Assembly (NCBI GenBank): GCA_902796435.1
Contig: CADBPG010000163.1
Coordinates: forward strand, 1 to 44,366
Direction: 5' to 3'
Length of the DNA: 44,366 bases
DNA from: an uncultured Eubacteriales bacterium
GTDB taxonomy: Bacteria > Bacillota > Clostridia > Lachnospirales > Bianqueaceae
In this document: one piece after another, positions 1,705 to 22,155 of the stretch
How positions within the stretch are numbered: position 1 is the stretch's first letter
Layout of the letters: each line of letters opens with the position of its first letter
Made by a program: the position numbers and the translations under genes
Notes under the pieces: generated by a model
Databases searched by the model: none
The model's input: the letters and a program-made list of their open reading frames with translations, nothing else
Told to the model about the DNA's origin: nothing

Positions 1705-1968
1705 CTACACCAAAACAAGCGTTTGAAAGCTTTTTGGGAGAGAATTCAGAAAAACAGTAAATCGTCTCCAGGAGAGAAAATCAAAATATGACGATTCCTC
1801 TCCAAAAATATGGAGACGATTTCAAAAAAGCTTGTTTTATCTCCAATGAATTTCTCGAGTTAGAGTTGCCAAATTGGAGAGAAAAGGCCAGAATCAGGAG
1901 ACCTCTCTATTCCAAATTGGAGACACTTTTATCTTTCTACGATTTGTCCCCACTTGGATGAGAATATG
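1705..1968. repeat. GGAGA/TCTCC-rich duplicated block, copy 1
   Basis: A 264-bp block starting CTACACCAAAACAAGCGTTTG aligns almost without gaps to 2011-2274 at an offset of 306-307 bp. It holds eight GGAGA/TCTCC pentamers (1737, 1765, 1771, 1799, 1812, 1840, 1876, 1897) plus a ninth at 1919. An 11-bp perfect inverted repeat pairs AAATCGTCTCC (1759-1769) with GGAGACGATTT (1812-1822). No convincing reading frame is present. With copy 2 it fills the 613-bp gap between the nuclease-like gene and the rbr promoter. Confidence 0.85.
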
Positions 1969-2010
1969 ATTGTCTGAATGATTGTGCTTAAACCAGTTTG
2001 GGTGCCGAGG

Positions 2011-2274
2011 CTACACCAAAATAAGCATTTGAAATACTTTTTGGAGAGAATATAGCAAAACAGTAAATCGTCTCCAGGAGAGGATACCAAAATACGAGGA
2101 TTCATCTCCAAAAACCTGGAGATGAAAACAGAGAATAGTGTTTTATCTCCAATGAATTTCTCAAGCTAGGCGCGCCAAAATGGAGAAAAAAGGCGAAAAT
2201 CCAAGATATCTCTCTATTCCATAATGGAGACGCTTTATTAATTCTGCGATTGCTCTCCATTTTGCTGAGTATGC
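2011..2274. repeat. GGAGA/TCTCC-rich duplicated block, copy 2
   Basis: The second copy of the block at 1705-1968, clearly diverged but nearly colinear. Pentamers lie at 2043, 2071, 2077, 2105, 2118, 2146, 2182, 2226 and 2254. The long stem of copy 1 is partly kept: TCGTCTCC pairs with GGAGATGA through one G-T wobble. A local 7-bp stem, ATCTCCA (2104-2110) with TGGAGAT (2117-2123), is perfect. The region is non-coding as far as can be seen. Confidence 0.85.
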
Positions 2275-2311
2275 AAAACATTCGCAAACAGGAATGCGAG
2301 CTTTGTTATTA

Positions 2312-2341
2312 TTGACAAACACCCCTGCAACACTATATAAT
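2312..2341 (+). promoter_or_regulatory. sigma-A promoter of rubrerythrin
   Basis: TTGACA (2312-2317) and TATAAT (2336-2341) with an 18-bp spacer, 54 bp upstream of the rbr start. Confidence 0.85.
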
Positions 2342-3007: not shown

Positions 3008-3022
3008 AGTTTTAGGCTTATA

Positions 3023-3201
3023 CGGCGCCAGCCGACCATGAGGACACGAAGTGTCCGAATGGCATGGCGTAGAAAAATGTGTAAAACGGCGCCAGCCGAC
3101 CATGAGGACACGAAGCGTCCGAATGGCATGGCGTAGAGAAATAAAAGAAATGACTGGCGCCAGCCGACCATGAGGACACGAAGTGTCCGAATGGAGCATG
3201 G
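3023..3201. repeat. triple REP-like palindromic repeat array
   Basis: Three copies of an about 50-bp palindromic unit start at 3024, 3088 and 3156 (period 64 and 68 bp). Each begins GGCGCCAGCCGACCAT, contains GAGGACACGAAG(T/C)GTCCGAATGG and, in the first two, ends CATGGCGTAGA. The unit folds as CGCCA/TGGCG, then CCAT/ATGG, then a GGACAC-GAA-GTGTCC hairpin. Copy 2 has one mismatch in the inner stem (GCGTCC). Copy 3 has an altered right end (ATGGAGCATGG). With the rbr terminator, the array accounts for most of the 300-bp gap 2938-3238. I see no gene in it. Confidence 0.85.
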
Positions 3202-21979: not shown

Positions 21980-21990
21980 GCAATAAAAAC

Positions 21991-22075
21991 GGAGGCCTGC
22001 GCGCTGGCGCGCATTCGGCCTCCTAAAAGCACTCGGACTCCCGTGCTGCGCACTTCATCCTCGTGCTTTTTGCGT
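21991..22075. repeat. partial palindromic element, related to the left half of 22156-22327
   Basis: The hairpin GGAGGCC...GGCCTCC (21991-21997, 22017-22023) contains an inner TGCGCGC/GCGCGCA stem. It is followed by AAAAGCAC (22025-22032) pairing with GTGCTTTT (22063-22070). The second part shares the core ACTCGGACT...CGTGC...TCCTCGTGC with 22202-22244. Confidence 0.72.
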
Positions 22076-22142
22076 TCTTAAGGTCGTATAAAAGCGCGAG
22101 TATACAAGTACACTCGCGCTTCTTTATACGACTTTAGAACGC
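22072..22142. repeat. 71-bp long nested hairpin
   Basis: Three nested perfect stems: GCGTTCT (22072-22078) with AGAACGC (22136-22142), GTCGTATAAA (22083-22092) with TTTATACGAC (22123-22132), and AGCGCGAGT (22093-22101) with ACTCGCGCT (22112-22120). In total 26 base pairs close a loop of about 10 nt. No T-tract follows, so it is not a normal terminator. Confidence 0.82.
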
Positions 22143-22155
22143 TTTTAGAAGTGTT

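Follow-up and report, generated by a model that had tools for sequence, protein, structure and literature searches.

Positions 1705-2274 of a 44,366-nucleotide stretch of DNA from an uncultured Eubacteriales bacterium (contig CADBPG010000163.1 of assembly GCA_902796435.1; the whole stretch is called the window here) contain a block dense in GGAGA and TCTCC pentamers, immediately downstream of a gene for a nuclease-like protein. Our analysis indicates that this block is probably a DNA array of paired inverted half-sites, part of a nuclease-and-repeat system in which protein and repeat co-evolve. Comparison of sequences establishes the association of gene and array, the private motif of each array, its fixed geometry and helical phasing, and a dispersal through genomes that is tied to the cognate gene. 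It likewise establishes that two motif classes have arrays at a distance from the gene; one of these classes has dozens of intergenic copies, confined to genomes with the cognate gene. The best reading is that the nuclease-like protein binds its own repeats and probably also spreads them; both binding and cleavage are steps that we infer.

The block consists of two five-module arrays

A preliminary description of the block had reported two copies at an offset of 306-307 bp, about 18 pentamers and no gene, and all three observations hold. Exactly 18 GGAGA/TCTCC pentamers lie within 1705-2274, compared to 1.9±1.3 in dinucleotide shuffles (maximum 6, n = 500) and a density of 1.5 per 570 bp in the remaining window. 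The copies align in two parts, 1705-1895 with 2011-2201 (offset 306, 81% identity) and 1895-1965 with 2202-2272 (offset 307, 75% identity). There is no convincing gene in the block, where small overlapping open reading frames (ORFs) of ~60 aa are listed. The long inverted repeat noted previously is present and perfect, although it extends over 12 bp (1759-1770 paired with 1811-1822) and not 11 bp.

The feature that had been overlooked is a set of ten modules with identical spacing. With one mismatch permitted, the pentamers resolve into ten inverted modules, TGGAGA-N23-TCTCCA, which form two tandem five-module elements (Table 1). Half-sites within a module start 29 bp apart, and once 30 bp apart (2181/2211). 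Conservation follows the half-sites: the two copies differ at 1 of 36 half-site columns versus 35 of 155 other columns (Fisher p = 0.004).

The window's assembly contains two further elements, on contigs C211 and C169, that share the motif and have almost the same geometry. Read in reverse, the C169 element has intervals of 34-41-64-43, an exact match to copy 1 of the window; the C211 element (34-41-54-43) has one interval that is shorter by about one helical turn. An element in a relative from the same genus (genome G002, contig C363) has intervals of 35-43-53-54. All three elements are intergenic, and tblastn of the sequence examined around each detected no homologue of the nuclease-like gene (E > 0.02). 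The orphan GGAGA element on C169 has a CRISPR-like array as a near neighbour (GTTTGAGAGTAGTGTAATTTCGTAGGGGTCTCAAAC; locus L008, 3230-3560), which starts a few hundred bases away.

Arrays adjoin a family of nuclease-like genes

Every sampled genome of the window's GTDB family carries between 1 and 17 homologues of the nuclease-like gene. A search of genome contigs with a sub-alignment profile found more than 526 relatives; the best 80, which were retained, belong to Lachnospiraceae/Clostridiales. In a sample of 398 genomes of the phylum, full-length members were confined to two families of a single order, the window's own and one more, and the remaining matches cover the nuclease domain alone. 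In other families of the phylum the same domain also occurs inside ORFs of 1200-1270 aa (L280, L283, L284).

Arrays were sought as over-represented 7-mers in the 600-nt flanks of the homologues, with a strict criterion of at least 5 copies on both strands. By this test arrays adjoin 54 of 94 distinct homologues and none of 93 control windows placed 1.3-1.9 kb away, and none was found inside gene bodies. The suggestion that the flanking gene and the block co-occur is thus strongly supported across the family. Arrays lie upstream of the gene in 46 cases, several of them stopping just 30-70 nt before the ATG, and downstream in 10, including the window; two homologues at most have arrays on both sides. 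The half-sites are non-palindromic, 6-8 bp long and often end in (G/C)TA, and their orientation usually alternates strictly. No tetranucleotide is common to all array motifs. Upstream of L140, L132, L158, L163, L170, L195, L217 and L219 the arrays have one orientation, or nearly so (for example AAAAGCA x14, AATAAGC x12), and these same-orientation arrays are perhaps a variant architecture.

The main direct-repeat periods of the arrays are 53, 62-65, 74-75 and 83-85 bp. Helical phasing is evident in 37 arrays distinct in motif and period (Rayleigh nR2 = 25 at 10.5 bp) and persists when the 51-54 class is left out (nR2 = 12, p ~5e-6); these p-values are optimistic because some arrays are related. 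Dispersed arrays of the AACCGTA class show the same regularity: across twenty such regions, the core-to-core spacing within a module is 32 or 33 in 90 of 93 cases and the gaps between modules cluster at 20-21 and 30-31 (R = 0.90).

These properties bear on the three options raised in the preliminary description: a structured RNA, a CsrA decoy or a clustered DNA-binding site. The last is favoured by the fixed spacing of half-sites, by periods in phase with 10.5 bp and by conservation that is confined to half-sites. Regular spacing suits proteins that bind the helix from one side, and RNA pairing would need no such phasing. No Rfam covariance model matched in the block, a relaxed search giving only sub-threshold rli48, and alifold on ten copies of a dispersed element of the AACCGTA class returned a covariation term of +0.89, with double changes in 2 of 78 pairs. 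Read by eye, pairing in the arrays seldom reaches beyond the 7-mer. Block RNA does fold better than shuffles (z ~ -3.2 to -3.7), but such folding is forced by the inverted sites, and without covariation we do not take these scores as evidence for RNA. Together, helix-phased periods and absent covariation suggest that the arrays are double-stranded protein-binding arrays, and a structured RNA is not supported. A CsrA/RsmA decoy was also rejected, since the motif differs between homologues and most homologous arrays lack GGA altogether, using motifs such as AACCGTA, CTTGCTA and ACCTATA. CRISPR was rejected because the spacers inside one array are near-copies and not diverse.

Protein and motif vary together

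The more alike two proteins are, the more alike their motifs tend to be (Mantel rho 0.30, p = 0.001). Similar motifs occur in 54% of pairs with more than 60% protein identity, compared to 1-2% of pairs below 40%. Seven paralogues in Butyrivibrio proteoclasticus illustrate the pattern: five have strong arrays, with the private motifs CTGCCTA, GGACGTA, ACGGATA, ATCCTAC and GGGTGCA. At the window locus itself, the orthologues in G001 and G002 (protein 52% identical) keep the ~30-bp spacing, with TGGATC/TGGACA replacing TGGAGA. A natural chimera is provided by L111 and L115, whose C-terminal parts are 96% identical, whose N-terminal parts are 51% identical and whose motifs are unrelated; this comparison points to the N-terminus as the putative reader of the motif. 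L087, L090 and L093 are syntenic orthologues from three species. The upstream arrays of L087 (CACTTGC) and L090 (CACATGC) have related motifs in which one base has changed across the whole array, which suggests concerted evolution.

Arrays of one motif class are dispersed in genomes that carry the cognate gene

In the five genomes with an AACCGTA array beside the gene, pairs of the form TACGGTT-N16..32-AACCGTA number 114, 52, 20, 11 and 2, versus 0-1 per genome in 24 genomes carrying other family members. Most copies in genome G059 lie between genes, and the flanking ORFs are convergent, divergent or tandem. A core of ~310 bp, with homology up to ~520 bp, recurs there at about ten sites in both orientations with ~74-85% identity, and half-site columns are 97.5% identical compared to 84.5% for spacer columns. 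In genome G058 this element is present in about a dozen copies. A search for empty sites in G058 gave matches essentially limited to the element, with the flanks unmatched.

The neighbouring gene and its predicted product

AlphaFold models of the window protein and of L165 (mean pLDDT 89 and 93, respectively) predict an N-terminal part in which three strands lie between a first helix and a second, long one; a restriction-endonuclease-like domain comes after it. The best Foldseek relatives of the C-terminal part are Bax1, DrdV and R2 endonuclease (probability up to 0.99). Neither Pfam nor NCBIfam has a family that matches the window protein or 54 relatives, and searches of PDB sequences with the whole protein and with an N-terminal profile gave nothing convincing. 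Eight residues are invariant in 54 members: R146, S147, K148, E150, D180, E195, H196 and G198. The C-terminal half also matches the nuclease end of the PADLOC candidate PDC-S68 (5e-24) and others, and a homologous domain occurs in RecD/AAA-type proteins. On its modelled restriction-endonuclease-like core and conserved acidic residues, the protein can be placed in the PD-(D/E)XK superfamily, whose metal-dependent nuclease activity it may share.

The gene occupies the same rpmF locus in all four species of the genus. In the window it lies between the conserved housekeeping neighbours rpmF and rubrerythrin, and the rubrerythrin neighbour is common to the window, G001 and G002; the G003 contig ends inside the gene. 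Downstream of the rubrerythrin gene, at 3020-3200 of the window, we saw by eye three near-identical ~50-bp units (GGCGCCAGCCGACCATGAGGACACGAAGYGTCCGAATGG...), a different kind of repeat. Rfam matches elsewhere in the window are limited to a Clostridiales-1 RNA (21984-22147, minus strand, E 5e-18) and a tRNA.

Table 1. Positions of the gene, arrays and nearby signals in the window
Feature	Position	Strand	Details
Nuclease-like gene, 252 aa	940..1698	+	TTG start behind AAAGGAGG; C-terminal PD-(D/E)XK domain from ~residue 145 (VRSKSE)
Tandem duplication of the whole element	1705..2272	+	Offset 306-307 bp
Array element, copy 1	1736..1952	.	Five modules starting at 1736, 1770, 1811, 1875, 1918 (intervals 34, 41, 64, 43); half-site starts 1736/1765, 1770/1799, 1811/1840, 1875/1904, 1918/1947
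Array element, copy 2	2042..2259	.	Five modules starting at 2042, 2076, 2117, 2181, 2225 (intervals 34, 41, 64, 44); half-site starts 2042/2071, 2076/2105, 2117/2146, 2181/2211, 2225/2254
Terminator-like stem-loop 3' of the array	2281..2300	+	Consensus match alone
Promoter-like TTGACA-18-TATAAT of the next gene (rubrerythrin, ATG at 2395)	2312..2341	+	Array lies upstream of the promoter

Discussion

In the system that we propose, the N-terminal helix/sheet/helix part of the protein would read the half-site, and two protomers would sit on inverted half-sites about three helical turns apart. Such a dimer could place its PD-(D/E)XK domains on the DNA between the half-sites. Occasional nicking or cleavage, followed by host repair or recombination, might then amplify, homogenise and disperse the arrays, so that protein and repeat would co-evolve. 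The gene itself is, as part of this explanation, probably now a stable chromosomal resident and not a jumping element. A more specific proposal, which we hold only tentatively, is that of a diversified dimeric PD-(D/E)XK family in Lachnospiraceae that would use exchangeable N-terminal recognition of private 6-8 bp half-sites, cut or nick the pairs and spread the phased arrays.

Several results weigh against a nuclease that spreads its own repeats. By the strict test, 40 of 94 homologues have no array, and some have arrays of the same-orientation type in its place. The partial Mantel correlation is 0.16 for the N half and 0.13 for the C half, which does not separate the two, and Foldseek matches to the PDB reach E-values of only ~0.01 with low TM-scores. 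The gene keeps its synteny within the genus and almost never occurs on plasmids or phages, and is therefore not visibly mobile; a scan of viral contigs gave no family members at the sensitivity used. Dispersal was examined for two motif classes only. No empty site or target-site duplication was seen, and in G003 the genes that flank the C211 element are on different contigs. Most of the genomes are metagenome-assembled, though cultured Butyrivibrio isolates show the same pattern.

The strongest alternative, which we nonetheless consider unlikely, is a nucleoprotein regulator: a DNA-binding regulator (perhaps of its own gene) or a nucleoid or looping factor whose nuclease domain is inactive or seldom used. 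Gene-side arrays would then be operators, and dispersed arrays a regulon or architectural sites. The excess of arrays directly upstream of the gene (46 versus 10 downstream) fits such a regulator, as does the syntenic, chromosomal position of the gene, and helical phasing would suit a regular nucleoprotein filament. However, the array is downstream in the window and beside nine other homologues, the ORFs around dispersed arrays are variously convergent, divergent and tandem, and entire elements have been copied into new positions. The putative catalytic residues E150, D180 and E195 are moreover invariant in 54 members, which argues for catalysis. A defence role, with a restriction-like nuclease and the cognate array as store, sink or self-marker, is improbable. 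It is suggested by the match of the nuclease domain to the C-terminus of PDC-S68 and other PADLOC candidates, but only that domain is shared, within large and otherwise different proteins, and the gene sits between housekeeping neighbours and hardly occurs on plasmids or phages.

A type III toxin-antitoxin system like ToxIN, in which the nuclease would be a toxin, neutralised by a repeat RNA transcribed from the adjacent array, is slightly less probable still. The order of array then nuclease in many members, the private repeat of each paralogue and the folding scores of the block all agree with it, but scores of this size are expected of any array of inverted sites, covariation is absent, and arrays also lie downstream or are dispersed without the gene. 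ToxIN resembles our system in having a repeat array adjoining a nuclease gene. Its array is a directly repeated structured RNA, unlike the inverted, helix-phased double-stranded sites seen here, and the ToxN/CptN/TenpN toxin fold does not appear among the Foldseek matches listed, which are REase-like. We therefore rejected this candidate on phasing, orientation, fold and dispersal.

The closest parallel to the nuclease and its repeats is with RAYT/TnpAREP enzymes and their REP/BIME repeats (REPtrons). RAYTs are domesticated, chromosomal enzymes (PMC8266576), and the RAYT/REP literature describes association of enzyme and repeat, co-evolution, repeat abundance tied to the gene and alternating orientation (PMC2817692). 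Each of these has a counterpart here: a chromosomal, domesticated-looking enzyme adjoining cognate repeats, alternating and regularly spaced (BIME-like) sites, enzyme-repeat co-evolution (the Mantel result above) and intergenic repeat abundance that follows the gene (2-114 pairs in five genomes versus 0-1 in 24). The enzyme, in contrast, is PD-(D/E)XK-like and not an HUH/Y1 tyrosine transposase; the repeats are helix-phased half-sites of 6-8 bp paired over ~30 bp, whereas a REP is a 20-50-nt hairpin after GTAG (or CGTC); and the array is usually one-sided, whereas in REPtrons inverted repeats flank the gene on both sides. The system would thus work like a REPtron but is not one, by enzyme fold, repeat structure and gene-repeat layout.

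Other known systems share single features. Pneumococcal BOX and RUP elements (PMC3049150) are modular intergenic repeats of a Gram-positive bacterium. The PADLOC candidates PDC-S68/S69 and the RecD/AAA-helicase-linked PD-(D/E)XK proteins have a homologous C-terminal nuclease domain, but are large, multidomain and without the N-terminal part of this family. For BOX and RUP we know of no dedicated nuclease gene with matching half-sites, and their sequence is unrelated. In open-access articles we found no published account of such a nuclease-repeat system, only the RAYT/REP analogy and BOX/RUP, and judged against that literature the system looks undescribed.

If this explanation is true, it would represent a second, unrelated bacterial solution to the REP/RAYT theme, in which a resident nuclease-like protein is paired with its own dispersed repeats, and one class of the repeats found between genes in major bacteria of the gut and rumen would be accounted for. 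With dozens of paralogues, each adjoining an array that reveals its DNA target, a protein-DNA recognition code would become directly testable. On the more specific, tentative proposal, the family would be a natural set of two-half-site nucleases, orthogonal to one another and in some ways comparable to zinc-finger or TALE nucleases. The proteins may also supply orthogonal modules for binding or cleaving DNA in organisms that are difficult to engineer.
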